64,000 nucleotides of DNA from Collibacillus ludicampi. Its GTDB lineage: Bacteria > Bacillota > Bacilli > Tumebacillales > BOQE01. Positions within the stretch are counted from its first letter, which is position 1. Each line of letters opens with the position of its first letter. The DNA lies in contig NZ_BOQE01000001.1 in the NCBI RefSeq assembly GCF_023705585.1, forward strand, positions 3,256,710 to 3,320,709, given 5' to 3'. A model generated the notes under the pieces. It did not search any database and was not told where the DNA came from. It worked only from the letters and a program-made list of their open reading frames with translations. Below, in pieces: positions 4,906 through 31,863 of this stretch. The position numbers were made by a program, and so were the translations under genes.

Positions 4906-4907
4906 AA

Positions 4908-10004: not shown

Positions 10005-10006
10005 TG

Positions 10007-10117: not shown

Positions 10118-10191
10118 TGTTTCTATGTTTTAACTAATAAAAAACTTCGGTAAAATACAATTATAATGTTAAATGTAAGGGAGAAAAGTAT

Positions 10192-10902: not shown

Positions 10903-10922
10903 CGGAAAAAGAAGGTGAATTT

Positions 10923-12200: not shown

Positions 12201-12278
12201 GTCCGATATCTTAGATTTGATAGGTTATCTCGTATATAAAAGTAAAGAAAGGCAAAGTGCTTCTCAATTATTTTGACA

Positions 12279-12305
12279 ACAGTCGATGAAAATCGGCTGT
12301 TTTTA
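12279..12305 (+). terminator. Rho-independent terminator
   Basis: ACAGTCGAT, tetraloop GAAA, ATCGGCTGT and TTTTA, 79 bases after the kinase stop. Confidence 0.8.
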
Positions 12306-12325
12306 TTTGGATTCAGCGAAACCGG

Positions 12326-12592: not shown

Positions 12593-12646
12593 AAGTTAAG
12601 AAGCCGTGAATTTCATAATCCGATAAGCTGAAGACATTCTCACACG

Positions 12647-12670
12647 CCCCCTTCTGTTGAAGGGGGTTTT
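12647..12670 (+). promoter_or_regulatory. Terminator-like hairpin containing an SD
   Basis: CCCCCTTC, loop TGTT, GAAGGGGG then TTTTT. The 3' arm is the ribosome site of the TTG start at 12675, so the same sequence can terminate upstream transcription or be masked for translation. Confidence 0.6.
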
Positions 12671-12674
12671 TCAA

Positions 12675-13634: not shown

Positions 13635-13650
13635 AAAGGAGGGGACACCC

Positions 13651-14256: not shown

Positions 14257-14276
14257 TCGGCCCCAACCGTTCTCTC

Positions 14277-14303
14277 ATCCCCCAGAAAGGGTGAAAGGGG
14301 GAT
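14277..14303 (+). promoter_or_regulatory. Hairpin with SD in 3' arm
   Basis: ATCCCCC (14277-14283) pairs with GGGGGAT (14297-14303). GAAAGGGGG is the ribosome site for ATG 14309. Confidence 0.45.
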
Positions 14304-14308
14304 TGGAA

Positions 14309-14632
14309 ATGAGAATCATATGGACAAATCATGCAAAAAAAAAGTTAGGGGATCGACATCGAGAGAATGCCTTGGAAAAGGCACGAGAAATTGGTACGGC
14401 TTTTGCCGAGGGTGACGTGGAATGGATCGTGCCAGGTGAAGAAGTGTTAGCTGCCGGTGAACGCATGATTGTCCGGCCCGACAGGGAGGGGTGGTACATT
14501 GTGACCTACCTGGGCAGTCATCCCTATCCGGAGGGAACCGATTTCGCTGCCGTCCGCAGATGGGAAAGACACCAGAGGCGAAGGGAAATGCACAAGACGC
14601 CGCTCAACAGCCGGAGAAGGGTGTCCGGTTAA
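14309..14632 (+). CDS. Small basic protein of unknown function
   Basis: 107 residues from ATG 14309, six bases after GGGGGAT. Starts MRIIWTNHAKKKLGDRHREN, a pattern (strand, then HAxxRxxxR-like helix) seen in DUF4258 and some RelE-fold proteins, followed by a beta-rich half (ERMIVRPDREGWYIVTYLG) and a very basic tail. A toxin-like or DNA/RNA-binding role is possible, but no catalytic signature is visible. Its stop overlaps the next start by one base (TAATG). Confidence 0.6.
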   Translation: MRIIWTNHAKKKLGDRHRENALEKAREIGTAFAEGDVEWIVPGEEVLAAGERMIVRPDREGWYIVTYLGSHPYPEGTDFAAVRRWERHQRRREMHKTPLNSRRRVSG

Positions 14633-14919
14633 TGGGTGTACGGTCGTTTCACTTCAAGATTAACGACACTGACCAGCTGGATAAGAGGATCATCGACTGG
14701 CTATTGCACAATCCCAATCGTTCGGAGAGCATCCGCGAAGCCCTGCGAGTGTATTTCTTTCTGCGGGAGCACGGAATACCGGTGGTTTCTGAGATGCCCT
14801 TGGAGCCTAAAAAGGAACGCTCCGCCCAGGGAAGTGGGGAGACTTCTACAGAGCCGGACGATTCAACGGTGAATGAGTTCTTCCAGGCGATGCGGGCTGG
14901 ACTGGACGACTGGGTTTAA
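14632..14919 (+). CDS. Ribbon-helix-helix-like DNA-binding protein
   Basis: 95 residues from the ATG that overlaps the preceding stop. The N-terminus VRSFHFKINDTDQLDKRIID reads as a beta strand and helix, then NPNRSESIREALRVYFFLRE as the second RHH helix; the SESIREALR motif is typical of MetJ/Arc-type repressors and relaxosome accessory proteins. The tail is acidic and likely disordered. It directly precedes a region rich in repeats (14976-15182), consistent with autoregulation or oriT binding; both are inference. Confidence 0.6.
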   Translation: MGVRSFHFKINDTDQLDKRIIDWLLHNPNRSESIREALRVYFFLREHGIPVVSEMPLEPKKERSAQGSGETSTEPDDSTVNEFFQAMRAGLDDWV

Positions 14920-14975
14920 GGGCACGGTTGCTGGACTTTTTGGCTCTTTTACCGGTTTTTCTACATTTTCTACTC

Positions 14976-15182
14976 TTCAACGGTAGAACATGCGCTTGGT
15001 TGCGCGATTCCCAATCAAAATCCCGTGTCTGGAGCGGGTTTCTTTCAAAAATCCGTGTCTTTGCCGGAATTTCGGGAAAGAAACCGGCAAGACAAAGAAG
15101 TGTGACGGGTTCGAGGTAGAATTCTCCTCTGTTGCTGGTTTTTTCGGCAAAGACCCGTGTCTCGGGAACTTTTTCTACCGAT
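14976..15182. other. Repeat-rich intergenic region, candidate oriT/regulatory locus
   Basis: Between the RHH-like gene and the DNA-transfer ATPase. CCGTGTCT occurs at 15023-15030, 15053-15060 and 15155-15162. Inverted repeats: GGTTTCTTT (15037-15045) with AAAGAAACC (15077-15085), TTGCCGG (15061-15067) with CCGGCAA (15084-15090), and outer CGGTAGAA (14981-14988) with TTCTACCG (15173-15180). An open frame runs through it but has no ribosome site. Confidence 0.45.
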
Positions 15183-15253
15183 CAAGAGTCGCAAACGCCA
15201 TTGTGCTCAGGAATTTGGCAAAAAATACGTCAACGGATAGGAGTGATACACTC

Positions 15254-17737
15254 ATGAATCCTCTTTGGACTTTCTCCACTCTTGGCCTTGGTGCCTTGGT
15301 GGCCGGAGGATTGGCGTGGGAACGGCGTCACCCTTTGTCAAGACCCGAGCAGGATTATCGCTATCTGCGCATCCTTCCTCATGCGGATGTGAGGGTGGAG
15401 ACGGATCGCATCATGCGGCTCGTGGAGCAGTTCGCAGGGTACAATCGTACCAAGCAGGAACGGATCCGCCGGGGCCGGGAATGGTTTCGGTTTCTCATCC
15501 ATATGTCCGAACGTGGGATCGAGTTTTACACAGGCTATCCACAAGACCGATCCACAGGTGTGAATAAAGCGTTTGAGGCGGCCTACCCCGAGTGCGAACG
15601 CCACCCGATCAAGCATGAAGAAATCCCTCTGCCCCATGCCAAAGGCGGGTACGGGGGCTATTTTGTGTTACGCGAGCGGGGAGAACGGGAAGGGTTGCCC
15701 CTGCGGCCATTCGATGCCCGACGGGATGAGTGGGGAGATGTGCTTCTGTTCCTAGAGCCGGGAACCTGGATTGACCTCGTGTTCTCCCCGGCCTCGCCAG
15801 CGGATTTGAAGCGTTTGGTCAAGCAGGCAAGCCGGGCCATACGTCCGGATCCCCGGAAACCTGCGAGTGGGTGGTCTGCTGTGGCGGAGATTGGAAAGGA
15901 GGCCTTGAAGGAGTTTGATCCTCGTAATGAAGGAAGGGGGAGGAAGAGGAAGCAACCTCAGCAACGGCCACCCAGTTTGAGTGATCTCGATCCCGATGAG
16001 GCGGCTCGGTATCGTAGTTTGATGAACCGCTTTACCGGGAAGGAGCGGGCCTTTGATGTGATGCTCACTGTCTGGTCCCAACACGAATTTGCCTCCAGCG
16101 TGATACAAAGTCTAGCCACCCGGCTGGAGTCAATGATGAGCGATCAAAACGGCATCCGGCTTCATAGGACGAGAAAAAGCCCCATAGCCAAAGTAGCTCC
16201 GATGCCCTATCCGCTCCAAACGATGATCTGGACGGCACCGGAGCTCGCGAACATCTTCCATTTGCCGAGTGGTGATCATCGGGTGATGGAACGCATCCCG
16301 CATCTGGAACGAGGACAACGAACTTTCGGGAAAGATGAATTCTCCAAAGGGATCAGCATGGGAACCCTGAATCACCCCATTCATGGCGAACGGGAGGCGA
16401 GAATTCCCCCAGAAACGTTTTCGAAGCATTTCGTCATCACAGGGGTAACCGGAGGAGGAAAATCTTCGCTCATCGTGACGATCTTTCAGTCCATGATCGA
16501 CAACTGGCTGGACGACCCCGATTATGCTGCGGGCTTTACATTGTTTGATCCGGCGCAGGAAACAGCCTTGACCGTGCTCAACCGGTTGCTTGAAGCGGAA
16601 CGACAAGGTCGGCGCGTCCCTTGGGAGCGAGTCCATTATGCGTCACTTAGGGGATCGAAGTATCCGATTGGTTTAAATCTTTTGCATAACAACGACGCCG
16701 AGACGGTCCTTCGTCTTCTCCAAAAAGTGGCTCCTGGAGCGAATACACCAAGAATGGATCGCTTGGCTTACAATGCGATTGCCAGTCTAATTGAGGCAGG
16801 GGGCCATCATACCTTGTTGGGCGTCCTGCCGATGATCGCGGATGAGGACTTTCGGAACCGGGTGATCCCGAAAATCCGAGACTATTACCTGCGGCAATTC
16901 TGGCGCACGGAGTTTGAGAGCTTTGCGGGTGGCCGGGATACTTCAGTCGATGCCCTGATCAACCGATTGAGTCCCTTTCAACGCAACCTGGATCTGCGTC
17001 GGATGGTGGGACAGGCCAAGTGGTCGATTCCCATTCAGAAATGGATGGACGAAGGGCACATCTTTCTCATTGACTTTCTGAATGTCGATGATACGGTAAA
17101 ATCCCTGGCTGGTGCCCATCTGATCAACCAGTATCACTTCGTGGCGAAAAGCCGCCCTCGTGGAAAGCGGCGTCTTCACTTCCTGGTGGCGGACGAGGCC
17201 CACCTGGTTCAGGTGCCGATCATGGGCAAGATTTTGGCGGAGGATCGGAAGTTTGGCTTGTGTCTGGGACTTATTACCCAGTACCCGGAACAGTTTGAAC
17301 CGTGGTTACAAAAGGATCTGGCCAACATCGTGGTCACTATCGCAGCTTGTGTACAGGGGTCCGATTCGTCCGGTACCATGTCCAAACTTCTAAAGGGTTA
17401 CTTCACTCCCGACCAACTTCAAAAATTGCCCGAGAGAACGGCGGCCATTACTACTCGAAATGAGCGTAACGAAGTGGACTTTTTCACGACCAAGAGTGAT
17501 CCGCCGTATGTGTACTTGCCTGATGGTCGTATAGCCAGATACCAGAACGCAGAGGATGAGGAGTTGTTTCTTCGGTACACATTGGCCAAGGCGCAGGAAC
17601 TTCAACGCAGGGACTGGAAGCCGGTGGAGGAAGTGGATCGGGAAATTGAGGAGTATCTTCAAGGTCCAACAGTGCTCGGCAGCCAGAAAAATAACGTCAA
17701 CGATGAAGAAGAATTCAGTGGCCCATTCGATTACTGA
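15254..17737 (+). CDS. HerA/VirD4-like DNA-transfer ATPase
   Basis: 827 residues from ATG 15254 (ATAGGAGTG upstream); the frame is open further upstream but through repeats without a ribosome site. One N-terminal membrane segment (residues 5-22), an about 350-residue domain, then the motor domain: Walker A GVTGGGKSS (residue about 402), Walker B FLVADEAH (about 645), sensor-type LITQYPEQFEPWL and QGSDSSGTMSKLL near 700. FtsK/HerA-class ATPases of this layout are coupling proteins (TcpA/VirD4) or VirB4-like motors that pump DNA. Being the only such ATPase here, it may serve as the coupling protein. Confidence 0.85.
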   Translation: MNPLWTFSTLGLGALVAGGLAWERRHPLSRPEQDYRYLRILPHADVRVETDRIMRLVEQFAGYNRTKQERIRRGREWFRFLIHMSERGIEFYTGYPQDRSTGVNKAFEAAYPECERHPIKHEEIPLPHAKGGYGGYFVLRERGEREGLPLRPFDARRDEWGDVLLFLEPGTWIDLVFSPASPADLKRLVKQASRAIRPDPRKPASGWSAVAEIGKEALKEFDPRNEGRGRKRKQPQQRPPSLSDLDPDEAARYRSLMNRFTGKERAFDVMLTVWSQHEFASSVIQSLATRLESMMSDQNGIRLHRTRKSPIAKVAPMPYPLQTMIWTAPELANIFHLPSGDHRVMERIPHLERGQRTFGKDEFSKGISMGTLNHPIHGEREARIPPETFSKHFVITGVTGGGKSSLIVTIFQSMIDNWLDDPDYAAGFTLFDPAQETALTVLNRLLEAERQGRRVPWERVHYASLRGSKYPIGLNLLHNNDAETVLRLLQKVAPGANTPRMDRLAYNAIASLIEAGGHHTLLGVLPMIADEDFRNRVIPKIRDYYLRQFWRTEFESFAGGRDTSVDALINRLSPFQRNLDLRRMVGQAKWSIPIQKWMDEGHIFLIDFLNVDDTVKSLAGAHLINQYHFVAKSRPRGKRRLHFLVADEAHLVQVPIMGKILAEDRKFGLCLGLITQYPEQFEPWLQKDLANIVVTIAACVQGSDSSGTMSKLLKGYFTPDQLQKLPERTAAITTRNERNEVDFFTTKSDPPYVYLPDGRIARYQNAEDEELFLRYTLAKAQELQRRDWKPVEEVDREIEEYLQGPTVLGSQKNNVNDEEEFSGPFDY

Positions 17738-18098
17738 TCTGTTAAGCTTATCTTTGGAGGTTGATGACATATTTGAATTTTTTTCCATCCCATCTGTTGA
17801 TAAGACGGACATAGCAGTTTATCTGGATAAATCAGATCGAAGAGTGCATGTGCTTGATCTCGCCCTTGGTCGAACTAGTCTGACGAACAGTATAGACTTG
17901 ATTCAAGAGGAGATCCTTCGGAGAATGGGTGTAGCTGACATACGTATCCAAGATTGGGAGTGGTATTTGTACCATCCCGATGGTGTAATAACTCGATATG
18001 ACCCGTTTGAGGAGGAACACCAGTTTAGGCAAGTTGAACCTAACGATGCTGCGCTGTATCCGCAATTTGTGAAAAAAATATTGTGTAGAATTAATTAA
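17703..18098 (+). CDS. Hypothetical acidic protein of the transfer module
   Basis: 131 residues if started at ATG 17703, which overlaps the ATPase end by 35 bases; TTG 17754 is an alternative and neither has a convincing ribosome site. Sequence has mixed alpha/beta character (VDKTDIAVYLDKSDRRVHVL, DWEWYLYHPDGVITRYDPFE). No family recognised. Composition is slightly more AT-rich than the ATPase. Confidence 0.5.
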   Translation: MKKNSVAHSITDLLSLSLEVDDIFEFFSIPSVDKTDIAVYLDKSDRRVHVLDLALGRTSLTNSIDLIQEEILRRMGVADIRIQDWEWYLYHPDGVITRYDPFEEEHQFRQVEPNDAALYPQFVKKILCRIN

Positions 18099-18141
18099 GC
18101 TATTGTCAGAAAGGATTTAGTAAGGGGAATTATTTCAAAAT

Positions 18142-18183
18142 AAGCTCTTCTGCTCCCTATGAGGAGTAAGAGGGCTTTTTTTG
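18142..18183 (+). terminator. Rho-independent terminator
   Basis: Imperfect stem AAGCTCTT...CTCC / GGAG..AAGAGGGCTT followed by seven T, downstream of the 17703 gene. Confidence 0.65.
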
Positions 18184-18201
18184 TTGAAGGGGGGGACATA
18201 T

Positions 18202-18996
18202 ATGCTTTTACGTTGGCTGAATCATCCTTCATTACGAGGAGATGAGCAGCTGATTGCCATGTTGTACGATCTTGGCATATCCACCAAACAACAGCTCCTG
18301 ACGATAACAGGTTGGTCTTCACGCACGCTACGATGGCGTCTGCAACAAATTCGCGAACGGGGACAAACCCCAGAAGAACGGGATATGTGGGTGAAAGCTT
18401 ACCCGGTACCGAGAACTAGGCATGTCATGGCCTATGCTCTTGGAAGACTTGGAATTCAGTACGCACTAGAAATGCGGTTCGAGCAAAGTCGTGGGAAAGA
18501 ACCTCCGCAGTCTCAGATCGCGCATTACGTTGGAACAAATGAGGTCCTGGTCCGGTTATTGCAAGCCGGTGTTTCTCGGGAGCAGGTGCAGTGGCTGTCT
18601 TCTAAAGAGGCGACAGACTATTTGGTGAGTTTGTGGGAATGGGCAGGGAAAGAGTTGAACAGGCGGCGTACCATCCGCCCGGATGCCAGGCTGATTCTCA
18701 ATGAACAACGATTCTGGATCGAGTATGATAACGATACGGAGAATCCACGGCAACTAGAACGGAAGTTTCATGACTACGTTAACACACTGGTTCCTGTGGG
18801 AGAAAATAGCCCGGTACTGTGGATTGCTTCGAATGATCAGCGAAAAAGATACTTGGAAATGAATTGGAAATCGTTTCAAAGGAATTTTTACAAGGAATCC
18901 AAAGTACCGAATATGATGTTTTTTACAGAAGGAGAGGAAACCAATTTTCTCCTTTCTGCCACTGGCAAGATAACTGGTAACATCTCAGGTACGTAA
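18202..18996 (+). CDS. Replication-relaxation family (MobC-like) mobilisation protein
   Basis: 264 residues from ATG 18202, six bases after AAGGGGGGG. N-terminal winged-helix region (QLIAMLYDLGISTKQQLLTI, GWSSRTLRWRLQQIRERG), a middle ending near LYS-rich segments, then the conserved block RPDARLILNEQRFWIEYDND with acidic residues typical of the replication-relaxation family (PF13814). In Gram-positive plasmids and ICEs these bind oriT and act as relaxase or relaxosome component. It is the only mobilisation protein seen, so this element may use a non-canonical relaxase. Family call is good; catalytic role unproven. Confidence 0.78.
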   Translation: MLLRWLNHPSLRGDEQLIAMLYDLGISTKQQLLTITGWSSRTLRWRLQQIRERGQTPEERDMWVKAYPVPRTRHVMAYALGRLGIQYALEMRFEQSRGKEPPQSQIAHYVGTNEVLVRLLQAGVSREQVQWLSSKEATDYLVSLWEWAGKELNRRRTIRPDARLILNEQRFWIEYDNDTENPRQLERKFHDYVNTLVPVGENSPVLWIASNDQRKRYLEMNWKSFQRNFYKESKVPNMMFFTEGEETNFLLSATGKITGNISGT

Positions 18997-19151
18997 AGAG
19001 TCTGATTTACTGGTTGTAACGATGGCAATACATGTTAATAATTCCTTATCCTTATTAGGATTTCCCAACCGACTTGGTTGCTCTATAGCAACCCTATCTT
19101 TCTCAATGATGCTCCAGTTCAATCAGAACGAATGATGAAATTTGTAATAGA

Positions 19152-19418
19152 TTAACTATGAAGATGAGTTGTATGATCCAAACATGATGATTCTAGGCTG
19201 AACTTGACCAAGAGGAAAGGTGATATTTTTAAGCATGATGGAATCAGCCCCCATTTTAACTGTCCGATCCGGTTTTTCCCTTCATGAGCGATCACAGCAG
19301 TAATGAGTTGTCCGGGTGCGATATTATACCGCGGTCGATAATCAAAAGGGATTTGTTCCACCTGGAATCTTTGCAGCAACGAATCCATTGGAACGGTGAG
19401 CGTGAATCGTCCACACAT
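19152..19418 (-). pseudogene. 5' fragment of an SOS response-associated (YedK/HMCES) peptidase gene
   Basis: Starts MCGRFTLTV with the essential Cys2 exposed after Met removal, continues YRPRYNIAPGQ and QLKWGLIPS, the classic YedK N-terminal blocks, then diverges after about 65 residues; intact proteins have about 220. YedK/HMCES crosslinks to abasic sites in single-stranded DNA. The catalytic Glu and His blocks are missing. A C-terminal YedK fragment is at 33391-33640, but the two do not join. Confidence 0.75.
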
Positions 19419-19451
19419 GATCTTCACTCCCAAAAACGGTCAGTCTCGCCA

Positions 19452-19832: not shown

Positions 19833-19906
19833 CCTTGCACTGAAATCCGCGGTTGTCCGAGCCCAACAGCGAAAATGGGTATTTGGTGCAAGGTAAAGGC
19901 CTTTAC
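19833..19906 (+). promoter_or_regulatory. Operator-like palindromes upstream of the TOMM precursor
   Basis: CCTTGCAC (19833-19840) is inverted at 19886-19893 (GTGCAAGG), immediately followed by the perfect 14-bp palindrome GTAAAGGCCTTTAC (19893-19906). The precursor start is 60 bases downstream, so these are candidate regulator sites. Confidence 0.45.
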
Positions 19907-19965
19907 GGTGGCTGAACTTGTTTCATAATCCTATAGGGAGTTCGGAAGAGAGGGGGTACGCGTGC

Positions 19966-20214
19966 GTGGATGATTTTAAGAAGGAACTGAAAAATCTGAA
20001 TATTGACAAGTTCAAGGCGGGCGAGTTGACACCGTCAGAAGACCGTGGGCCGCATGATACGGTTCTAGCACAGTTCGGTAATTGCTTCCGGTGCAGTCGT
20101 TGTTTTCAATGCTTTCGCTGTTTTAACTGTTTCTTCTGCTTTGGGTGTTTTCGTTGTGGCGGCTGCGGTGGTTGCGGTGGTTGCGGTGGTTGCGGTGGTT
20201 GCGGCGGCGTCTAA
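19966..20214 (+). CDS. Heterocycloanthracin-type TOMM precursor peptide
   Basis: 82 residues from GTG 19966 (AGAGAGGGGG 8 bases upstream). Leader of about 39 residues (DDFKKELKNLNIDKF, then KAGELTPSED) shares the F-x-x-EL-x-x-LN...F-x-x-G-E-x-x-P pattern of the heterocycloanthracin/sonorensin family. The core begins after FGN and holds 14 Cys in unbroken C-x-x register: first nine with mostly Phe-X (CFRCSRCFQCFRCFNCFFC), the rest C-G-G, ending GGV. Only one Ser and no Thr are in the core, so the product should be almost all thiazoles. The GGTGGTTGC codon repeat suggests expansion by slippage. Confidence 0.93.
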   Translation: MDDFKKELKNLNIDKFKAGELTPSEDRGPHDTVLAQFGNCFRCSRCFQCFRCFNCFFCFGCFRCGGCGGCGGCGGCGGCGGV

Positions 20215-20255
20215 GGAAGGTCTGACGAACTTCGAGGCGGCTTAAGTGACAGAAT

Positions 20256-20287
20256 TCCCTGCGCGAACCATTGTGTCGCGCAGGGGA
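20256..20287 (+). promoter_or_regulatory. Attenuator-like hairpin between precursor and enzymes
   Basis: CCCTGCGCGA / TCGCGCAGGG, 9-base loop, with no clean T-run. Located 42 bases after the precursor stop; such a stem would raise precursor mRNA level relative to the enzymes. Confidence 0.6.
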
Positions 20288-20388
20288 TAAATCTTGGGAT
20301 ACAGTGGACAAGCCTTCCTACATATGATGTGTGTGAGCCGGATGATTCAGGGCGTGATCACGAACCGTGGTATGGGAGGGAAGTCCCA

Positions 20389-22395
20389 ATGACGAGTTTA
20401 GACCCATCTATGCGCTTAAAGGTCAAGGGAGACGTGTTTTATGTTCCGGATGCAAACGGCGGAGTATATTTCCGGAACAACGAAGGCTCGTTTCGTATGG
20501 AAGGCGGTAGCATTCATCTCTGGATTGAAAAACTGCTGCCTGTGTTCACTGGCGAGCACACACTGGCGGATTTGACAGACGGTCTGCCGGATGCGTACCG
20601 CGACAGGGTGTACGAAATCGCAGAAGTGTTGTATCGCAATGGCATGGTTCGGGACGTCGGGAAGGATCTCCCGCACTGCTTGACCGCTCCAATTCTCAAA
20701 CGATATGAGAGCCAAATTGAATTTATCGATTACTTTGTAGGTTCGGGCGCCTTTCGCTTTCAATCGTATCGTGAGTCAAAGGTGTTAGCTGTCGGTTCGG
20801 GATGGTCTGTCGTTTCGTTGGTATCCGCCCTCTTGGAATCGGGACTGCCGAAAATTCACGTCCTTCTCACGGAGGCGAACCCGGTACATCTTCGGCGACT
20901 CACAGAGTTGGCGGAATCGGCCCTCCTCGCAGACCCAGATGTGGTACTCGAGGAAATCACGCTGAGGTCGGATGGGGAGGGTGCGTGGCGTGAGGCGCTG
21001 CGGCCGTTTGAATGGGTCTTGTATGTGTCAGAGAGCGGCGACATCGAGGAACTGCGGGCTCTCCAAAGCGTATGCAGAGCGGAAAAGAAAGTGTTTCTCC
21101 CGGCTGTGTTCGTTCAGAGCGTCGGATTCGTGGGTCCATTGGTACGTCCAGACTCCGACCTGTGTTGGGAATCCGCGTGGCGCCGATTGCACCAAGCCGC
21201 CCTGTGTAAAGACCCACAGTGGAATACTTTCTCTGACACAGCAGCAGCCATGCTCTCGAATGTCATGGTTTTTGCTTTGTTCAAATCGGTTACCGGCATC
21301 GTCACATCGGAACTCCAGAACCAACTTTTTCTACTCAATCTCGAGACGTTTGAGGGAAGTTGGCACTCGTTCGCACACCACCCCGTGGTGGTCGGTAACG
21401 CCTCCGTCACATGGATTGAAGATATTGAACAGACACTTCAACACCGGTTAGGGCAAAGTGGAGAGGATAAGAGTGTGCTGCTTTCATTTTTCGCTCAACT
21501 GACATCGCCTGAAACGGGCATTTTCCATCATTGGGACGAAGGGGACTTAAAGCAGCTTCCGCTTTCTTTATGTCGCGTCTCGGTAGCGGATCCCTTGTCG
21601 GATGGACCGGCACAGTTGTTACCAGAAATGATTTGTGCGGGACTGACACACGAGAAGGCAAGGCTTGAGGCGGGATTTGCCGGGATAGAAGCGTACGTGT
21701 CCAGGTTGCTGAGCTGGAATTATCCGTCGCTGTTCTCGACTCAAGATGAAGCAGGACGGCAAGTGTCAGATGGGGAAGAGGACGACCGTCGCCTTAAACC
21801 TGGACAATTCGTAGGTGTTGGCGTAGGGGAAACGTTCGCGGAAGCTGTGTGCCGCGGCCTGCAAAAGTGTCTTGAGAAGGAGTTTTCCAAGCAACACCTC
21901 AACCAGCATCCACCGACTGTGGCGCCGGTCCAGGTCAGTGGGGTTCAAGACGAGGATTGCCAGTACTGTGTAAAAGCCCTGACGACACTCAACGGTCCCC
22001 CAGAGATTGCTATGGGGGAGGAAATATGCGGTTTTCCCGTGATTTGGGTGCGCTCCAATGGTCACTGGTACGGCAGTGTAGGTTTGAATGTGACCTTGGC
22101 GTTGCGCATGGCGCTGCAACACGCCATCCTCGCCTCGCAGATTCAAGCGGGTGACTTGGCGACACGGGTGGTTGAGGCTCCGTTCGCACTTGTTCAAGGC
22201 GACGTGCGTCAGTGCCTCGTCGTACAGGAATGCCCGCGGGAAGCACAGGCTCAGGTCTTACACTCTGCGTTACAGGTGCTGAAACGGAACCGTAAACGGA
22301 TGTCGGTCATGCAACTGCATATGGACGAAGCATTGTCGAGCGAAGAACTCGCCGGGGTGTTCGGCGTTGTGTTGCGAGAGGAGGAACTCTCGTGA
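20389..22395 (+). CDS. TOMM maturation protein, E1/ThiF-like (ocin_ThiF_like)
   Basis: 668 residues from ATG 20389, 8 bases after GGGAGGG. N-terminal about 110 residues could form a winged-helix RiPP recognition element (LPVFTGEHTLADLTDGLPDA). A Rossmann nucleotide-binding core follows (VLAVGSGWSVVSLVSALLES, residue about 130), as in the putative thiazole-containing bacteriocin maturation protein family. A late segment has DEDCQYCVKAL. It probably binds the leader and presents the core to the cyclodehydratase. The GTGA junction overlaps the next gene by 4 bases. Confidence 0.85.
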   Translation: MTSLDPSMRLKVKGDVFYVPDANGGVYFRNNEGSFRMEGGSIHLWIEKLLPVFTGEHTLADLTDGLPDAYRDRVYEIAEVLYRNGMVRDVGKDLPHCLTAPILKRYESQIEFIDYFVGSGAFRFQSYRESKVLAVGSGWSVVSLVSALLESGLPKIHVLLTEANPVHLRRLTELAESALLADPDVVLEEITLRSDGEGAWREALRPFEWVLYVSESGDIEELRALQSVCRAEKKVFLPAVFVQSVGFVGPLVRPDSDLCWESAWRRLHQAALCKDPQWNTFSDTAAAMLSNVMVFALFKSVTGIVTSELQNQLFLLNLETFEGSWHSFAHHPVVVGNASVTWIEDIEQTLQHRLGQSGEDKSVLLSFFAQLTSPETGIFHHWDEGDLKQLPLSLCRVSVADPLSDGPAQLLPEMICAGLTHEKARLEAGFAGIEAYVSRLLSWNYPSLFSTQDEAGRQVSDGEEDDRRLKPGQFVGVGVGETFAEAVCRGLQKCLEKEFSKQHLNQHPPTVAPVQVSGVQDEDCQYCVKALTTLNGPPEIAMGEEICGFPVIWVRSNGHWYGSVGLNVTLALRMALQHAILASQIQAGDLATRVVEAPFALVQGDVRQCLVVQECPREAQAQVLHSALQVLKRNRKRMSVMQLHMDEALSSEELAGVFGVVLREEELS

Positions 22396-24335
22396 ACGGT
22401 TGTGTGCTTGTGGTTGGAAACGGGCTGATGGCGGAGTTTGTCATGGGTGAACTCGCGAAGACGTGTCAGGTCGTCCGTCATATGGACTTGTCAGCAGAGG
22501 TTCCCAACGGGGTGGACTTGGCGCTCGTCCTGCACGATGCCTGGCAGCCCGCAATGTATCAACAGGCAGAAGCGGTGTTCCAGCCACTCGGAGTGAAGTG
22601 GCTGCGCGGTTTCGTGTCGTTCGGTGACGGCGTCATCGGACCACTCGTGAGCCCTGGAACACCGGGATGCTCCCAGTGTGCAGACCTGCGGCGTCTGATG
22701 GCAAGTTCTGACCGTCAGGACATGTATGAAATTGAACGAGGATTGGCCGTGCACGGGGGAAACTCGCGTGACGCATGGGTATCGAGACTGGGCCTCATGC
22801 AGATGGCAGAACTCATCGTAGCAGAGGTGCAGCGTGTGTTACACGGCAGCCGCGCGCAAACAGAAGAACATGTTTACTTCGTCAACCTCAAGACGCTGAA
22901 GACGACTCGACACCACATCCTACCGAACCCGCTTTGTTCTGTCTGTGGTCAAGTGCCAGATGACACGCCTGACGCGGCCAAAATCTCACTTGAGTCGAAC
23001 CCGAAGGTAAGCCGCAACAGCTACCGCTCGCGCAAGGTGGACGACCTGAAGGCCGTTCTGGTCCGGGACTATTTGGATTACCGGACCGGGCTCTTGAACG
23101 GGAGGCTTGATGACCTGGCGTCGCCGTTTGCGGCGGTAACCGTCAATCTGCCGTTAATGAGGGCTGACGAAGGGACCGCGGGGCGAACGCTTTCGTATGA
23201 AGAGAGTGAGCTAACCGCCATCTTGGAAGGGCTGGAGCGCTACTGCGGCTTGTCACCCCGTTCCAAGCGGACCGTTGTTAATGACAGTTTCCGAAACCTC
23301 GGCCATCAAGCACTCAATCCGCTCTCGGTCGGGGTGCACGCACCAGAGCATTACGCCCTGCCAGATTTTCCGTTTCAATCGTTCGATCCCGAACGACCCA
23401 TGCACTGGGTATGGGGGTATTCGTTTTTGCATCAACGCCCCATCCTCGTCCCAGAGTTGCTCGCCTATTACAGTTTAGGCTGCGGGGATGGATTCGTCTA
23501 CGAGACTTCGAACGGCTGCGCATTAGGCGGTAGTTTGGTCGAAGCCATTTTCCACGGAATCTTAGAAGTTGTCGAGCGAGACGCATTCCTTATGACGTGG
23601 TACGCACAATTGCCGCTCCCGCGCCTGAATCTTCATTCAGCGGACGATCCCGAACTACATCTGATGGTCGACCGGTTGCGTGCTCTGAAGGGATACGAGA
23701 TCCTCGCGTTTGACGCCACGATGGAGCACGGAATCCCTAGCGTTTGGGTGCTGGCGAAAAACACAAGGCGAAAAGGCGCCAACCTCGCCTGTGCCGCGGG
23801 AGCCCATGTGGACCCGGTACGGGCGGTCAAGAGCGCGATTCACGAGATTTCCGGCACGCTGCTCATGCTCGAAGCGCGATATGAGGAGAACCGCGAGGCA
23901 TGTCTGCGGATGTATCGCGATCCGTACGAGGTGCGGCACATGGAAGACCATTCTATGCTGTACAGTCTGCCGCAAGCAGAAGAGCGCCTGCGATTTTTAC
24001 TCGACCACAACCGCAAAGAAACAACGTTTGACGAGGCATTCAAGCCACGCGCAGCGCACACGGATTTGACGGATGACCTGAAAGACCTGCTGCATGTGTT
24101 CCATCGCTTACAGCTTGATGTGATTGTCATCGACCAGACGGCGCCGGAGCTGAAACGAAACGGACTGTATTGCGTGAAGGTGCTGATACCAGGGATGTTG
24201 CCGATGACATTCGGATATCACCTGACGCGGTTGGAAGGATTGGAGCGCGTACTTACAGTCCCCGTTCACCTCGGTTACGCGACACAACCGCTGACGATGA
24301 GCGACATCAATCCCCATCCCCATCCGTTTCCATGA
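22392..24335 (+). CDS. Fused ThiF/Ocin-like and YcaO cyclodehydratase
   Basis: 647 residues starting at GTG 22392 inside the previous stop. Residues 1-200: E1-like partner domain with two Cys pairs (CSQCADLRR near residue 95, CSVCGQVP near 185) that likely bind zinc. Residues about 210-647: YcaO ATP-dependent cyclodehydratase with EGLERYCGLS, GCALGGSLVEAIFHGILEVV, ERDAFL and a C-terminal NPHPHPFP. A Pro-rich PxPxP end is a hallmark of azoline-forming YcaO enzymes. The enzyme would convert core Cys to thiazolines with ATP. Confidence 0.93.
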   Translation: MNGCVLVVGNGLMAEFVMGELAKTCQVVRHMDLSAEVPNGVDLALVLHDAWQPAMYQQAEAVFQPLGVKWLRGFVSFGDGVIGPLVSPGTPGCSQCADLRRLMASSDRQDMYEIERGLAVHGGNSRDAWVSRLGLMQMAELIVAEVQRVLHGSRAQTEEHVYFVNLKTLKTTRHHILPNPLCSVCGQVPDDTPDAAKISLESNPKVSRNSYRSRKVDDLKAVLVRDYLDYRTGLLNGRLDDLASPFAAVTVNLPLMRADEGTAGRTLSYEESELTAILEGLERYCGLSPRSKRTVVNDSFRNLGHQALNPLSVGVHAPEHYALPDFPFQSFDPERPMHWVWGYSFLHQRPILVPELLAYYSLGCGDGFVYETSNGCALGGSLVEAIFHGILEVVERDAFLMTWYAQLPLPRLNLHSADDPELHLMVDRLRALKGYEILAFDATMEHGIPSVWVLAKNTRRKGANLACAAGAHVDPVRAVKSAIHEISGTLLMLEARYEENREACLRMYRDPYEVRHMEDHSMLYSLPQAEERLRFLLDHNRKETTFDEAFKPRAAHTDLTDDLKDLLHVFHRLQLDVIVIDQTAPELKRNGLYCVKVLIPGMLPMTFGYHLTRLEGLERVLTVPVHLGYATQPLTMSDINPHPHPFP

Positions 24336-24449
24336 GCTTTGACTGTGACGGGGAAGCTGGGCGTGCGCACGCTGAACGAACTTACCATCGCTTGCCATGA
24401 TGATTCCCATCTTATTCGCACCTCGAATCCCTGACCAGGAGGGAGAAGC

Positions 24450-26030
24450 ATGACGTTGGAGGAATTCCTGCACGACCTGCATTATGACATTGACAAGGTC
24501 CGCCCTCCGGACGTGGAGCCGGACTGGGATGATGCACCGCTGGCCTACAAGTTGTACCGTGGCCAGCCTTCATTCCCGTTGTCGTTAGACGTGCCGCTGT
24601 CTCTTGAAGGCGAGAGGCCGCCTGCAGAGCCCAAGCTTCGCGAATTCGGCCATTTTCTCTGGTACGTGTACGGGATCACGCAAGTGTCCCAGTCTCTCGT
24701 GTCCCTAGGGGAGGTGGCACGATACGCGCACTGGATGCATACGTATCGGAGGTTTGTCCCTTCCGGCGGGGGATTGTATCCAAGCGAGCTGTACGTGTAC
24801 CTCAAACTTGAGGATCTGCCAAACGGCGTCTACCACTATGACGTCATTCATCATCGCTTGGTGTTGCTGCGTGAAGGCAATTACGATGCCTATCTAGGCC
24901 GCGCCCTGGGAAACCGCTGTGACGTGTCATCGTGTTTTGCGACTGTCTTCGTGTCGACGATGTTTTGGAAGAACTTTTTCAAGTACGACAACTTTTCGTA
25001 TCGTTTGCAAGGGCTGGATGCTGGCGCGCTCATTGGGCAACTGTTGGAGGTCGGAAAGCGATTTGGGTACACATCCGGGGTGTATTTTCAATTTCTCGAC
25101 AGAGCGGTCAACCATCTGTTGGGGCTTGTGGCACAGGAGGAAAGCGTGTACGCGGTTATTCCATTGTCTACAGAACCCACTTCTCGTTGGTTTGGGATGG
25201 ACAACGAATCCAGTCCTGTCACCGCATCCAAACTCTGTTTGGAGTTGCCAGATATTCATCCCGAGCACTACGTGCGATCCCGCAGGATACGCAACTATCC
25301 GGCGATCATTCGCGTGAACGAATCTGCGTTCATGGAATCTACAGAGTCATTTCGAACCATGGAGGAGACGGTCGAGGAGGGCGCCCCGTGTATTGGTCAG
25401 GTGGTAGCAATTCCGCCCGTGAATCGATTGTCGTTTGGTTTGGCATCCGCCTGTCGGACACGGTATTCGCCGGGGATGGACTTTCAATTGAAGAAGGTCA
25501 GCGACATGCAACTGGCTTCCCTCCTCTCTGAAGCGATAGCATCATTCCAGTATCACAACGATTTGGACAAAGGAAAGAGCGTTCAGCCTCGCGTCTCACT
25601 TTACGGCTGTTTCGTTGGTGTGGAAGGGATTCCGGACGGGGCTTACCACTACGAAAGCGACGCGCATGCGCTCCGACTCTTACGCGCTGGAGACCACCGG
25701 GGCCGACTGCAACAAGGGATGACCATGCACAACGTCAACCTCCACCAGGTGCCACTCTGCTTGCATGTGGCCGGTCATCGGCATCACCTCATCCATACGC
25801 TTGGTTCCAGAGGGTACCGGATACAACAGATGGAGGTTGGGATGCTCGTACAGCGTCTTCTGCTCACGGCGTCCGCGCTGGGAATGGGTGGGCATCCCCT
25901 CCTTGGGTACGAAACCGACATTTGCGATGAGCTATATCAATTCGCATCAAATGGACTGACCTGCTTGATACAAATTCCGGTTGGTCCGTACCGAACGGGA
26001 TCGCGTTTGGAAGGCCGTTTGCACAGCTAG
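24450..26030 (+). CDS. SagB-type FMN-dependent azoline dehydrogenase, two-domain
   Basis: 526 residues after CAGGAGGGAG. Two nitroreductase-fold halves: first with YRRFVPSGGGLYPSELYVYL, NGVYHYDVIHHRLVLL and a GxLxGQLLEVG-like stretch; second with RYSPGMDFQLKKVSDMQLAS, DGAYHYESDAHALRLL and MLVQRLLLTASALGMG. SagB/ThcOx dehydrogenases oxidise thiazolines to thiazoles using FMN. It is the last enzyme of the operon, 114 bases after the YcaO gene with no visible signal between. No transporter or immunity gene follows. Confidence 0.9.
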   Translation: MTLEEFLHDLHYDIDKVRPPDVEPDWDDAPLAYKLYRGQPSFPLSLDVPLSLEGERPPAEPKLREFGHFLWYVYGITQVSQSLVSLGEVARYAHWMHTYRRFVPSGGGLYPSELYVYLKLEDLPNGVYHYDVIHHRLVLLREGNYDAYLGRALGNRCDVSSCFATVFVSTMFWKNFFKYDNFSYRLQGLDAGALIGQLLEVGKRFGYTSGVYFQFLDRAVNHLLGLVAQEESVYAVIPLSTEPTSRWFGMDNESSPVTASKLCLELPDIHPEHYVRSRRIRNYPAIIRVNESAFMESTESFRTMEETVEEGAPCIGQVVAIPPVNRLSFGLASACRTRYSPGMDFQLKKVSDMQLASLLSEAIASFQYHNDLDKGKSVQPRVSLYGCFVGVEGIPDGAYHYESDAHALRLLRAGDHRGRLQQGMTMHNVNLHQVPLCLHVAGHRHHLIHTLGSRGYRIQQMEVGMLVQRLLLTASALGMGGHPLLGYETDICDELYQFASNGLTCLIQIPVGPYRTGSRLEGRLHS

Positions 26031-26794: not shown

Positions 26795-26870
26795 GCTCAG
26801 GTTGTTAGCCGTTTCACGAATTCACACCCCTCGATAACATATAACATCCTTATTTTGAGGGGTGAAGATA

Positions 26871-26999
26871 ATGTTTGGAGCTTTTACTCGTTGGGCGATT
26901 GTGTTTCTTATCATCTTCGTCTTGTTCTTCTTGCTTGTTCCTGGTTATGACGGTGCAGGCTATGGAGCAGGAGCTGGCGCAGGTGCTTACGGTTACTAA
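26871..26999 (+). CDS. YjcZ-family small spore protein
   Basis: 42 residues after GAGGGGTGAAG: MFGAFTRWAIVFLIIFVLFF, then LVPGYDGAGYGAGAGAGAYG. The family has the FTRWAxVFLIIFVLF hydrophobic helix and a Gly/Ala/Tyr tail and is found in spores of Bacillales. Four more members or relics lie in this window (29521, 35806, 35974, 36151, and a relic at 36438). Likely driven by a late mother-cell or forespore sigma factor, though no promoter was identified. Confidence 0.88.
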   Translation: MFGAFTRWAIVFLIIFVLFFLLVPGYDGAGYGAGAGAGAYGY

Positions 27000-27498: not shown

Positions 27499-29028
27499 TT
27501 ATTCTGGTTTTACAATAAGCGGCCGCATCATTTCGTTATCTTCATGCTCTAAAATATGACAGTGCCAAACATAATTTCCCGTATACGGACCAAACCTTGT
27601 TGTGATAATGCGCGTTACTTTACCAGATTCGACTCTTACGGTATCCTTCCCGCCACGTTCGTAAGGAGCAGGCGGAACAGGCGGCCCGGTAAAGCGAATT
27701 TTGCCTGAACGCTTAAAGTGTTGCACATCGAAAGGCTGACGGTTTAGGATGAAGAAATCAATTAAATGGATATGGATCGGATGGGTATCGTTGGTCAAAT
27801 TAATAAGATTCCATAATTCGATATTTCCCAAGCGCGGCGTTTCCGTGGCGGGAGCATCCCATCGTTTGTTATTGAGCAACAATAACTGTCGACCATATCG
27901 GTCTTTCTTTTGGTCCAAAGTAAGATGGCGGATTTTTTGCACCTGGTTCAAGGGTAAACGATGGATGGTTTTCAAACGAGAGGGGATCGTACTTTCATCT
28001 TTTCCGCTTAAAGGAAGAGAGACCCGAAATTGCATTACCAATCCCGTTGTTTTCGGATTCGCATTTGCCCCGGTATTTCTTAAAATTATCTGTTGCCCTT
28101 TATGTGCGGAGAAATCGATGATCACATCGACACGCTCTGCCGGAAAAAGAGTGATTTGTTTTACTAGAATGGGTGCCTGAAGGAATCCTCCGTCCGTTCC
28201 AATTTGAAAAAAGGGCTGCCCGCTGCTCAAAGAGAAGATGTAAGATCTCGTGTTAGACGCGTTTAGCAGACGAAACCGGTATTTTCGGGGTTCCACTTTT
28301 AAAAAAGGCCAAATCTTCCCATTTACCAAAATAAAATCACCTAAAAACTCAGGAACGATGGATGGGGTAGGAAGTTTTGGGGAAGCGCGCTGCGGTTTGC
28401 TCGGATAATACAGGGAACCATCTTCATGAAAAGAGCGATCCTGGATAATGAGGGGGATTTCATATTTCCCTTTTGGGAGGGAAAGAGATCGTTCATGTCG
28501 GTCTCTGACAAGATAAAACCCCGCCAATCCCGCGTAGATGTTTAAACGGGTAATTCCCAATGCATGATCATGATACCAAAGGGTGGTTGCATCTTGATGA
28601 TTGGGGTAGTGGTACATTTTTCGCTTGAATTGGGGGCCTGTTTGTTTAAACCCTCGTGTAAACCAAGCGTCGGGATGTCCATCGCTGCTAGGAGGAGTGG
28701 TGCCCCCATGAACATGGACAACCGTTCTTACTTCGGGAGCGCCTTTGTTGGCACCATGAATAGTTTTGTCCACCGGAAGGAAATGTCGTTCGGGCAGATG
28801 GTTGGCCCAAAGGACATTCACTTTTTCATTCTTTTCCACGATCGTGGGTCCGGGATATTGTCCTTCATATCCCCATAATCGTGTAGCGGGAAGGTCACGA
28901 TGGAGTTTCTGATAAAATTCTTTCATTCTCACTATATAAAACGTGGAATCCTTATCCTTTTTGATTGGCTTGAGTGTTTTCAATATAGGCAATTGATCGA
29001 CAAAAGGTTGGAGACGCCTTTTTAACAT
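27499..29028 (-). CDS. cotA: CotA-type spore-coat multicopper oxidase (laccase)
   Basis: 509 residues from ATG 29028 (AAGGAGAAC 8 bases upstream; a TTG lies one codon earlier). Four copper-binding blocks are intact: HVHGGTTPP, WYHDHALGITRLN, THPIHIH and HCHILEHEDNEMM. The start (MLKRRLQPFVDQLPI) and overall length match B. subtilis CotA, which oxidises phenolics and bilirubin and forms the brown pigment of the outer coat. The axial Met of the type 1 copper is present. It lies between two YjcZ/RNA repeat blocks, giving a spore-surface island. Confidence 0.95.
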   Translation of the reverse strand: MLKRRLQPFVDQLPILKTLKPIKKDKDSTFYIVRMKEFYQKLHRDLPATRLWGYEGQYPGPTIVEKNEKVNVLWANHLPERHFLPVDKTIHGANKGAPEVRTVVHVHGGTTPPSSDGHPDAWFTRGFKQTGPQFKRKMYHYPNHQDATTLWYHDHALGITRLNIYAGLAGFYLVRDRHERSLSLPKGKYEIPLIIQDRSFHEDGSLYYPSKPQRASPKLPTPSIVPEFLGDFILVNGKIWPFLKVEPRKYRFRLLNASNTRSYIFSLSSGQPFFQIGTDGGFLQAPILVKQITLFPAERVDVIIDFSAHKGQQIILRNTGANANPKTTGLVMQFRVSLPLSGKDESTIPSRLKTIHRLPLNQVQKIRHLTLDQKKDRYGRQLLLLNNKRWDAPATETPRLGNIELWNLINLTNDTHPIHIHLIDFFILNRQPFDVQHFKRSGKIRFTGPPVPPAPYERGGKDTVRVESGKVTRIITTRFGPYTGNYVWHCHILEHEDNEMMRPLIVKPE

Positions 29029-29520
29029 CAAAATGTTCTCCTTTCATAAGAATTAAAATCATGTTATTTAATGCGGAGAAAAATTTAATTTCTTGGATTC
29101 ACACCCTTTATTTTAAAAATAGTGTCTTATCCCGTATTTAAGGGGTCACTGTACCATTTCGGGTAAACTGTACGTTTAGACACAAAATCACCTACCTGTA
29201 CGGTAAGGAGCAGTTTGCTTTTCAAGGGTCTTCTCGTCTGAAATCGCTGTTGCGTAATGCTCACTTTCGTAAGAATACTTACCCGTTCTCGGAGGATACC
29301 CCCTAGGCTGTGGTATTCCATCCTGCTAAGATTATATGAATTTACAATCGGTCAAGCTCTCCGCTAGAATTGATTTTTCTATGAGTCTATTAAAATTAGA
29401 CAAATTACTACTCTACTTTCACTGATTTTTTAATGAGTCTATGAAAATAGACAAATTGCTAATGCATTATTCTCCCCTCCTGAATTAACTGTAATAGATA
29501 AAACAGGAAGGGGGGGGGCT
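29029..29520. other. Intergenic region with AT-rich direct repeat
   Basis: GAGTCTATNAAAATAGACAAAT-like segments at about 29381-29405 and 29436-29460 form a direct repeat, each with an internal inverted TCTAT/ATAGA pair. A 64-codon minus-strand frame (29127-29321) is unrecognised and may be a protein tail. A nine-G run ends at 29518. Confidence 0.45.
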
Positions 29521-29652
29521 ATAGTAGTTGGACCTTTCACCCGATGGGCGATTGTATTTCTTATCATCTTCGTCTTGTTCTTCTTGCTTGTTCCTGGTTA
29601 TGGCGGTGCAGGCTATGGAGCAGGAGCTGGTGCAGGTGCATACGTATACTAA
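29521..29652 (+). pseudogene. YjcZ-family spore gene lacking a standard start codon
   Basis: Codes FTRWAIVFLIIFVLFFLLVP then GYGGAGYGAGAGAGAYVY, nearly identical to the 26871 gene, but the region aligned with its ATG reads ATA GTA GTT after a poly-G run. No ATG, GTG or TTG is in frame upstream. Either a lost start (pseudogene) or initiation at ATA. Confidence 0.6.
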
Positions 29653-29677
29653 GGATCAATTTCTCCAAGTGACAAAT

Positions 29678-30706: not shown

Positions 30707-31600
30707 CTAAGCTGCGAGCTGACGCCTGTATTCAACAGGTGTCAGCTTGTTTTTGTTCAACTGGATTCGCTCTTCATTGTAGAAGCGAATATACTCATCA
30801 ATTCTCCTTTGTGCTTCCTTCTTGTCTGGTATATCATAGAGGTAGAGTTCTTCTGTCTTCAGATGAGAGAAGAAACTCTCAATACAGGCGTTGTCAAAGC
30901 AATTGCCTTTGCGTGACATGCTGATTCGGGCGCCAACCTTCTGCAGCATGTCATGGTATTCGTGGGACGTGTACTGGAATCCTCTGTCACTGTGCAAAAT
31001 GACTCCCGTAGCGTCCTTTCTCTTTTCAAAGGCTCGTTTGACTGTGTTTACTACCAATAGATTGTCATTACGATCACTGATGCAGTAGCTAATGATCTCA
31101 TAGTTGAACAAATCCATGATGGAGGAAAGATATAACCATCCCTCTGTGGTTCGGATATATGTCACATCCGTTACCCACTTTTGATTGGGTGCCTCTGCAT
31201 GGAAATCACGGTTTAATAGGTTCTCGGCAATGCGGGATCCTAGGTTAGCTACCTGCTTACTATGAACGTGTCGTTTTCTACGAATCTTAGCTTTTAAGCC
31301 CATATTCTGCATCATTCTTAAGACTTTCTTGTGGTTTACCTTCAGATGAAACTGACGTTCCAATTCAGCTTGAATACGGCGATATCCGTATCTTCCTTTT
31401 CGTTGTTCATAAACAGCGCGAATTTTCTCCTTAAGCTCTTCGTCTTTATGGGGTTGTTGTTGGCGCTTTACATATTTGTAGTACCCACTACGAGAGATCT
31501 GTAGAAACTTACATAACTCATCAATGGAATATTTACCATGAAGGGCTTTCACAATCTGATGTTTTACCGATACACCTCCCGTTTCAAGATCTCTAACCAC
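30707..31600 (-). CDS. IS3-family transposase OrfB (DDE integrase core)
   Basis: 297 codons. HTH_21-like N-terminal part (SIDELCKFLQISRSGYYKYV), then the integrase core with the DDE triad: Asp in WVTDVTYI, Asp in LHSDRGFQY, Glu in CIESFFSHLK, and a final YIRFYNEERIQ. Normally made as an OrfAB fusion by -1 frameshifting; the A6 run at 31601-31606 (AAAAAAG on the minus strand) sits exactly at the overlap with OrfA. All catalytic residues are intact, so the element may be active. Confidence 0.95.
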   Translation of the reverse strand: MVRDLETGGVSVKHQIVKALHGKYSIDELCKFLQISRSGYYKYVKRQQQPHKDEELKEKIRAVYEQRKGRYGYRRIQAELERQFHLKVNHKKVLRMMQNMGLKAKIRRKRHVHSKQVANLGSRIAENLLNRDFHAEAPNQKWVTDVTYIRTTEGWLYLSSIMDLFNYEIISYCISDRNDNLLVVNTVKRAFEKRKDATGVILHSDRGFQYTSHEYHDMLQKVGARISMSRKGNCFDNACIESFFSHLKTEELYLYDIPDKKEAQRRIDEYIRFYNEERIQLNKNKLTPVEYRRQLAA

Positions 31601-31863
31601 TTTTTTAAGACATCATTCTCCATTTCCAAACGACGTACATACCGCTCCTGATCTACATATTCCTTCCGTCTCCCCCTATGTTCCAGAAGACCGTATTCTC
31701 CTTCTTCCCGATACTTCTTCATCCATACCTTTAAACGACCAACATCCTCAATTCCTAATAACTCCGCCACTTGTTTCTTGGTCTTACCTTGTAATCTCAT
31801 CTCCACCGCTTGCTTTTTTAACTCAAAACTATATGTCTTAAATTTCTGTCCCTTTTTTGCCAT
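31564..31863 (-). CDS. IS3-family transposase OrfA
   Basis: 99 residues: helix-turn-helix (FELKKQAVEMRLQGKTKKQV, then AELLGIEDVGRLKVWMKKY) and a C-terminal leucine-zipper-like helix (YVRRLEMENDVLKKWLEIL). It binds the terminal repeats. The 3' part overlaps OrfB in the -1 frame at the slippery A6 run. Confidence 0.93.
   Translation of the reverse strand: MAKKGQKFKTYSFELKKQAVEMRLQGKTKKQVAELLGIEDVGRLKVWMKKYREEGEYGLLEHRGRRKEYVDQERYVRRLEMENDVLKKWLEILKREVYR

Follow-up and report, generated by a model that had tools for sequence, protein, structure and literature searches.

A stretch of 64,000 nucleotides (nt) from Collibacillus ludicampi (contig NZ_BOQE01000001.1, positions 3,256,710 to 3,320,709), here called the window, holds a gene cassette of the heterocycloanthracin/sonorensin type, and the question it raises is at what stage of life such a cassette would be expressed. 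Open reading frame (ORF) reading and profile searches found four intact genes on one strand, in the order A-F-D-B: a precursor (A), an ocin-ThiF-like protein (F), a cyclodehydratase (D) and a dehydrogenase (B) (Table 1). From the motifs before the precursor and between it and the enzymes, in the window and in its relatives, it appears probable that the cassette is under the mother-cell programme of sporulation, with the enzymes made first (sigma-E, shut off by SpoIIID) and the precursor later (sigma-K, GerE). The new point is this promoter wiring; the gene content is already known for the family.

The comparison was based on a class sample of 398 genomes, in 60 of which F scored over the cut-off; the cut-offs for A, F, D and B are the curated NCBIfam thresholds. 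Sixty loci were fetched, from 58 of the other 59 F-positive genomes, one of them twice, and from G005; G297 contributes two loci, and both were kept. The F contig of G076 was left out, and two loci (L133 and L140) gave no precursor ORF. Four genomes (G231, G249, G346 and G372) have a second F copy over the cut-off, and only the copy beside the precursor was used. Counts in the A-F gap refer to 56 loci, with gaps of at least 330 nt (L095, L101 and L109) excluded, except where 59 gaps are named. The control windows (1874, each of 300 nt) came from the enzyme-gene part of these loci, both strands being used.

Sigma-E and sigma-K promoters have a common -10 element, and base 4 of the -35 element differs, being T for sigma-E and C for sigma-K, as described in PMC517825; sites of the form CAC-N16-CATA are given for SigK in PMC4750369. 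The test for the -35 element searched for K-M-A-C or K-M-A-T placed 16-18 nt before CATA. Upstream of the precursor, KMAC was found in 37 of 59 loci (shuffle mean 1.9, maximum 5) and KMAT in four (shuffle mean 3.7), with K and M as the assumed first two letters of the pattern. Without the best-sampled genus, g27, the counts are 21/41 for KMAC and 3/41 for KMAT. The sigma-K assignment of the precursor promoter is well spread across taxa, with KMAC seen in 13/17 families and 19/31 genera.

The precursor promoter is accompanied by a site resembling the binding sequence of GerE, the consensus of which we take to be RWWTRGGYNNYY; its printed letters were sought and not found. In 33 of 59 precursor upstream regions (18/41 without g27), such a site, AAATRGGY, precedes CATA by 40/41 or 51 nt; the combination never occurred in shuffles or in any of the 1874 control windows. 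The spacing is 40/41 nt in 26 loci and 51 nt in seven (the window and six others), two distances that differ by about one helical turn, and between 25 and 70 nt the sole other spacing is one at 33 nt, to a second CATA. Over both strands of the window, the spaced pair (40, 41 or 51 nt) occurs only once, at 19873. A second GerE-like site follows the first in the window, and in L127 and L128 such a second site fits at 12/12 positions, likewise 20 nt after the first.

The -35 base was also read in known sporulation genes. Upstream of yabG, which we take to be sigma-K dependent, KMAC was found in 11/17 cases and KMAT in 0/17; upstream of spoIVA, presumably sigma-E dependent, the figures were KMAT 30/30 and KMAC 1/30. 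Two further genes, spoIID (KMAT 10/30, KMAC 1/30) and spoIIID (KMAT 21/30, KMAC 1/30), are sigma-E genes according to PMC517825. The spoIVA controls were the 30 best-scoring matches in the class sample, not F-positive genomes; the others came from 30 F-positive genomes chosen for spread, among which yabG was found in 17. KMAC and KMAT occurred in 64 and 65 of the 1874 control windows, respectively. Taken together, the conserved motifs and the controls with the expected -35 base make it likely that the precursor is made late in the mother cell under sigma-K.

A different pattern was observed in the gap between A and F, which in the window is 174 base pairs (bp) from the precursor stop to the F start. 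The gaps contain KMAT in 22/56 cases, KMAC in 1/56 and GerE-like sites in 0/56; the KMAC:KMAT ratios of 37:4 for the precursor and 1:22 for the gaps give p 3.9e-12 in a Fisher test, uncorrected for relatedness. Of the 56 gaps, 31 have a hairpin of the CYCCTG...CAGRGG type, with a T-rich tail in 21 cases; this hairpin stands upstream of a promoter-like element in 27 of the 27 gaps having both. The consensus of the latter element, derived from 47 sequences, is about AGGCATGAGGGACAAATAGCgGTACATAAGAT with fixed spacing. A loose form of it was found in 50 of 59 gaps (shuffle mean 0.77, maximum 3), and the form GGACA or GRGACA, N9-12, CATA in 46/56 gaps including that of the window, with 0 in shuffles and four among the 1874 control windows. 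This GGACA-type element occurs in 28/38 gaps outside g27 and is spread over 14/17 families and 24/29 genera. It is specific to the gap, as 0/59 precursor upstream regions contain it. By comparison, the SpoIIID and GerE consensus sequences counted without spacing were weakly informative, and a sigma-70 scan gave four matches where 3.4 were expected. No Rfam match was found at the gathering threshold in the 18-28 kb part of the window. The original prediction placed the four genes in one operon, which is doubtful and probably too simple, because one conserved promoter-like element precedes the precursor and another the enzymes, and the gap holds a hairpin besides.

Loci that had not been used for discovery were examined as well, namely 11 linked loci with F under the cut-off and 20 unlinked precursor copies. 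The linked loci gave KMAC in 6/11 (shuffle mean 0.64, maximum 3), GerE-like sites in 3/11 and the enzyme element in 3/11; the unlinked copies gave KMAC in 11/20 (shuffle mean 0.72, maximum 2), no KMAT and GerE-like sites in 0/20. The cassette also keeps the company of sporulation genes. A SpoIVA match was found in all 60 F-positive genomes against 269 of 398 overall (hypergeometric 5e-12) and in all 69 genomes with a precursor at E ≤ 1e-4 (hypergeometric 7e-14), and SpoIIID is present in 30/30 genomes examined, C. ludicampi included. A gene of the heterocycloanthracin family in B. cereus was up in biofilm cells, as were sporulation genes, according to PMC6962202.

Several observations weigh against mother-cell control or narrow its basis. 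At the precursor, the window's own -35, TTAC, fits three of four KMAC positions at the right distance, so that the window is outside the 37 of 59, and 13/59 precursor upstream regions have neither motif. In the gap, the window element has GGACAAG and a CATA -10 but no KMAT -35; KMAT occurs in 16/18 g27 loci vs 6/38 elsewhere, that is, in 4/17 families and 6/29 genera. The GGACA-type element is missing from 10/56 gaps. A degenerate SpoIIID consensus alone, whose letters are our assumption, is barely enriched (55/56 vs 46.7). Among the fresh loci, the linked KMAC matches come from g27 and g105 only, and the GerE-like and enzyme-element matches from g27 alone; the unlinked KMAC matches all belong to family f16 (G076, G181 and G191), and six copies of other families have none. 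The co-occurrence with SpoIVA is confounded by ancestry. The spoIVA and yabG promoters have the same -35/-10 layout as the cassette, and most spoIVA spacers also hold GGACAA, but this lies 4 nt before the -10, not 10 as in the gap element, and is thus 6 nt nearer; the AAATRGGY site at 40/41/51 nt, unlike in cassette precursors, is absent from spoIVA (0/30) and yabG (0/17). GGACA...CATA matches in spoIVA (17/30) were not counted as support, being mostly to a second CATA. The sigma-E assignment of the enzymes, drawn from g27, the -10 and the SpoIIID-like element, is less certain than the timing of the precursor.

With these reservations, the following course of events is proposed. In the mother cell, sigma-E would drive early production of F, D and B, which SpoIIID would then shut off; SpoIIID sites that overlap a promoter mostly repress, as stated in PMC517825. 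The enzymes would wait in the mother cell until their substrate appears, when sigma-K with GerE later switches on the precursor. Going by what is known of the family, the leader would be bound by F, which would present the peptide to D; ATP-dependent cyclisation of Cys by D would yield thiazolines, and oxidation of these by B would give thiazoles, up to 14 rings. Because the cassette has no regular exporter or protease, the product may stay with the spore, laid on its surface, or leave when the mother cell lyses. Its role as a spore-borne protective or antibacterial peptide is a guess, with the membrane activity reported for sonorensin in keeping with an antibacterial one, and this final role and the sigma-E step are the least certain parts. 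The chances are about even that this holds for the heterocycloanthracin/sonorensin family as a whole, which would then be a sporulation system of the mother cell, with an exporter-free poly-thiazole on the spore surface or released by lysis, and not a secreted bacteriocin system.

The family is called bacteriocins in the literature (PMC2674419 and PMC4603692), and sonorensin is reported as a membrane-damaging antibacterial in PMC4544038, which fits a conventional bacteriocin and counts against control by sporulation. The four genes would then be served by a vegetative or stationary-phase promoter and an unlinked exporter, the peptide would kill competitors, and the motifs would be incidental. 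ABC (ATP-binding cassette)-ATPase-like ORFs in the flanks of six of 59 loci point the same way, and some of these loci may have a transporter. However, the precursor promoters follow the sigma-K pattern both in the spacing of their motifs and in their -35 base, with controls, and in the flanks read no gene family spans more than four families of loci; a conventional bacteriocin is considered unlikely. It is improbable, too, that expression takes place in the mother cell as proposed, yet with both promoters active at one late sigma-K stage outside g27 and without early stocking of enzymes. The scarcity of KMAT in gaps outside g27 and the -10 element common to both sigma factors (PMC517825) would allow this, whereas the near absence of KMAC and GerE-like sites from the gaps and the restriction of the GGACA element to them would not be expected.

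The four genes might also form one transcription unit, read through from the promoter at 19903-19927 into F-D-B, with a hairpin that merely protects or attenuates the RNA. The common strand, the short gap and the overlap of D with F are in keeping with this, as is the window hairpin, which lacks a T run and is absent from the predicted terminator list; the second conserved promoter-like element, placed after the hairpin wherever both are present, argues against it and leaves a single unit with little probability. Finally, conjugation-type genes upstream at 12.6-19 kb could suggest a mobile element on which this strain carries the cassette in a silent or decaying state, but none of the four reading frames is broken and each exceeds its cut-off, which makes this reading very improbable indeed. 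Staged mother-cell expression is the explanation retained here.

Table 1. Coordinates, in window positions, of the cassette genes, their putative control elements and a neighbouring gene.
Feature	Position	Strand	Details
GerE-like site AAATGGGTATTT	19873..19884	+	First base 51 nt before CATA of precursor -10; 12/12 consensus positions
Second GerE-like site GTAAAGGCCTTT	19893..19904	+	20 nt after the first; 11/12 consensus positions
Sigma-K-like promoter of precursor (putative)	19903..19927	+	TTAC 19903-19906, 17 nt, CATA 19924-19927
Precursor A	19966..20214	+	82 amino acids (aa), GTG start; leader about residues 1-35; TIGR03601 43.1 bits, cut-off 35
9-bp tandem repeat encoding CGG end	20153..20204	+	Tandem Repeats Finder (TRF), 5.8 copies
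Hairpin CCCTGCGCGA/TCGCGCAGGG	20257..20285	+	10-bp perfect stem, without T run in window
F-D-B promoter-like element (putative)	20306..20328	+	SpoIIID-like GGACAAG 20306-20312; CATATGAT -10 20321-20328
F protein, ocin-ThiF-like, predicted leader-peptide binding	20389..22395	+	TIGR03693 689.5 bits, cut-off 561.9
D protein, short C domain fused to YcaO cyclodehydratase	22392..24335	+	TIGR03604 417.9, cut-off 219.3; TIGR03882 148.6, cut-off 36.9
B protein, SagB-type dehydrogenase	24450..26030	+	TIGR03605 210.2 bits, cut-off 78.4
YjcZ-like small hydrophobic protein	26862..26999	+	45 aa; some homologues named 'Sporulation protein YjcZ' by UniRef

By gene content, the cassette is an ordinary member of its family. 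The precursor, F protein, fused C-D protein and SagB-type dehydrogenase expected of a heterocycloanthracin/sonorensin linear azol(in)e-containing peptide (LAP), also called thiazole/oxazole-modified microcin (TOMM), were all found, and judged from the profile scores this is a complete cluster of that type, as the original prediction held. The genes and coordinates given there stood, and the enzyme genes are intact; its view of one operon is doubtful, and the adjacency that it pointed out is common in the class. The F start was taken as the ATG at 20389, where the family profile begins, and a longer GTG start at 20329 is also listed. At its N-terminus, F is similar to a PbtF fragment of solved structure, 8t19 (E 3.9e-10). 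The GTG start of D overlaps the F stop. D, with TIGR03882 and TIGR03604 in one protein, has 647 aa against 775-784 aa in LynD, TruD and MusD, which it matches up to its own proline-rich end, NPHPHPFP. A truncated cyclodehydratase depends on an F protein, and a shortened N terminus of the fused C-D protein is a family feature, according to PMC4603692. Of the 8000 scored, 2017 are relatives of D at E ≤ 1e-50, and the best named ones (in Laceyella, Brevibacillus, Bacillus, Effusibacillus and others) share about 65-70% identity with it. B has two nitroreductase-like stretches and matches the two-domain nitroreductase 3eo7 and McbC; its Lys178-Tyr179 aligned with the FKY of McbC, in which the Lys-Tyr pair is presumably catalytic.

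The precursor core, residues 36-82, contains 14 Cys, nine Phe, 14 Gly, one Ser and no Thr, with all 14 Cys exactly three residues apart, which bears out the strict C-x-x spacing that had been noted. Cys 1-8 are followed by seven Phe-bearing pairs and one Ser-Arg, and Cys 9-14 each by Gly-Gly, giving a C-terminal (CGG)6. Fully strict spacing was found in 12 of 59 precursors compared, the window included, and the window's run of six CGG units is the longest among the 59, the next longest being three. Tripeptide indels, usually of CGG units, have been described for the family (PMC2674419). A polythiazole product with up to 14 rings is plausible, for which the calculated mass shift is about -20.03 Da per azole ring and -280 Da for 14.

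It was found that the precursor indeed lies beside the enzymes, as originally pointed out, but this is the rule in the class and not an unusual feature. A precursor match at E ≤ 0.01 is present in 56 of the 60 F-positive genomes, and in 55 it lies at most 504 nt upstream of F on the same strand; in G336 the precursor overlaps F. Three of the four genomes without a TIGR03601 match (G006, G204 and G391) still have a Cys-rich precursor ORF in place (L100, L141 and L142, respectively), and the core of L100 is rich in TCGG units. Among the fetched loci, 60 hold F, 59 hold D and 58 hold B, the misses being contig ends, and the order F-D-B is kept in 58 of 59 loci; the remaining one (L088) ends inside D. 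Adjacency was consequently dropped as the surprise of this locus, since a local precursor followed by F-D-B is the common arrangement. The C. ludicampi genome itself has one precursor match. Six heterocycloanthracin-type precursors each were found in G181 and G191, two genomes of family f16 (loci L265, L269, L271, L273, L274 and L277-L282), and G181 is without an F match at E ≤ 0.001. A search of genome contigs with F turned up a single relative, in Bacillus sp. BA3, and a search of plasmids gave six distant or partial relatives, none covering 80%. On the Paenibacillus larvae plasmid NZ_CP019653.1, an unannotated stretch (8333-9196) shows 61% identity to F over residues 1-289.

The heterocycloanthracin system of B. 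anthracis and B. cereus (PMC2674419) likewise has a C-x-x precursor with a TIGR03601 leader, a scaffold/YcaO protein, an F-type protein and a SagB-type enzyme. There, however, a long distance separates precursor and enzymes (1.27 Mb in Ames) and the cores end in aromatic motifs, whereas in the window the two are adjacent and the core ends in (CGG)6V. PMC2674419 (Haft 2009) does not treat promoters or sporulation control, and the papers listed in literature searches include no account of sporulation control of the family. Sonorensin of Bacillus sonorensis has the same family name and predicted class (PMC4544038), which are the points compared here, and its activity is reported there. A further comparison is with the Alicyclobacillus macrosporangiidus precursor (P0001 / L143), 61% identical to that of the window, which has the same leader, C-F-(R/N/Q)-C half and GerE-like site 51 nt before CATA but no (CGG)6 end, and its A-F gap is without the GGACA element. 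Thiopeptide F proteins such as PbtF have an N-terminal leader-binding region similar to that of the window F; other thiopeptide genes, which were not searched for one by one, were not noted beside the cassette.

For the flanks, stretches of at least 50 aa from about 1.3 kb ahead of the precursor and 2 kb beyond B were clustered in 59 loci, which gave 146 clusters. The 12 largest are all from one genus, and seven of the 146 span two or more genera. The widest of these consists of the ABC-ATPase-like ORFs (L091, L104, L108, L131, L135 and L136, from four families), and the others occur in two or three loci; in the flanks read, none of the gene families is a widespread neighbour of the cassette. 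Among 28 ORFs of the window scanned with Pfam, no transporter was found save a lactate permease at 57600-59381, about 33 kb away. In Effusibacillus dendaii (L099), a YjcZ-like ORF lies between the promoter region and the precursor (score 117, shuffles ≤34). Similarity to the YjcZ-like protein exceeds each of 20 shuffles by at least 10 in 11 of 59 leaders, whose alignments were not individually inspected; the window leader does not reach this margin.

Downstream of the YjcZ-like gene in the window, a multicopper oxidase (27499-29031, minus strand) is flanked by the YjcZ-like protein and a similar stretch at about 29530-29660 (plus strand), a place for which the ORF list gives a different frame. 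The part before the cassette (1-19000) contains conjugation/secretion-type genes (two T2SS-F, a histidine kinase, an NlpC/P60 and SLT peptidase, a HerA/TraD-like ATPase and Replic_Relax) and is possibly an integrated element. Upstream of the cassette, an ORF cut short (19152-19433, minus strand) has MCGRFTL near its start and, by eye, resembles the front part of what we take to be an SOS-response peptidase of the YedK type. Two overlapping ORFs at 30707-31863 (minus strand) resemble, by eye, a transposase pair of the IS3 (insertion sequence) type, and a ComM-like Mg-chelatase protein (38550-39605, minus strand) looks truncated, its profile match ending at 160/207 at the ORF end.

About one sampled species in seven of the class has a cassette of this kind (60/398 with F over the cut-off). 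Mother-cell control, if true, would explain why a transporter, a protease and an immunity gene are not regular companions of the cassette. The peptide would then have to be sought in late sporulation and in spore extracts, and a heavily modified azole peptide would be added to spore biology.

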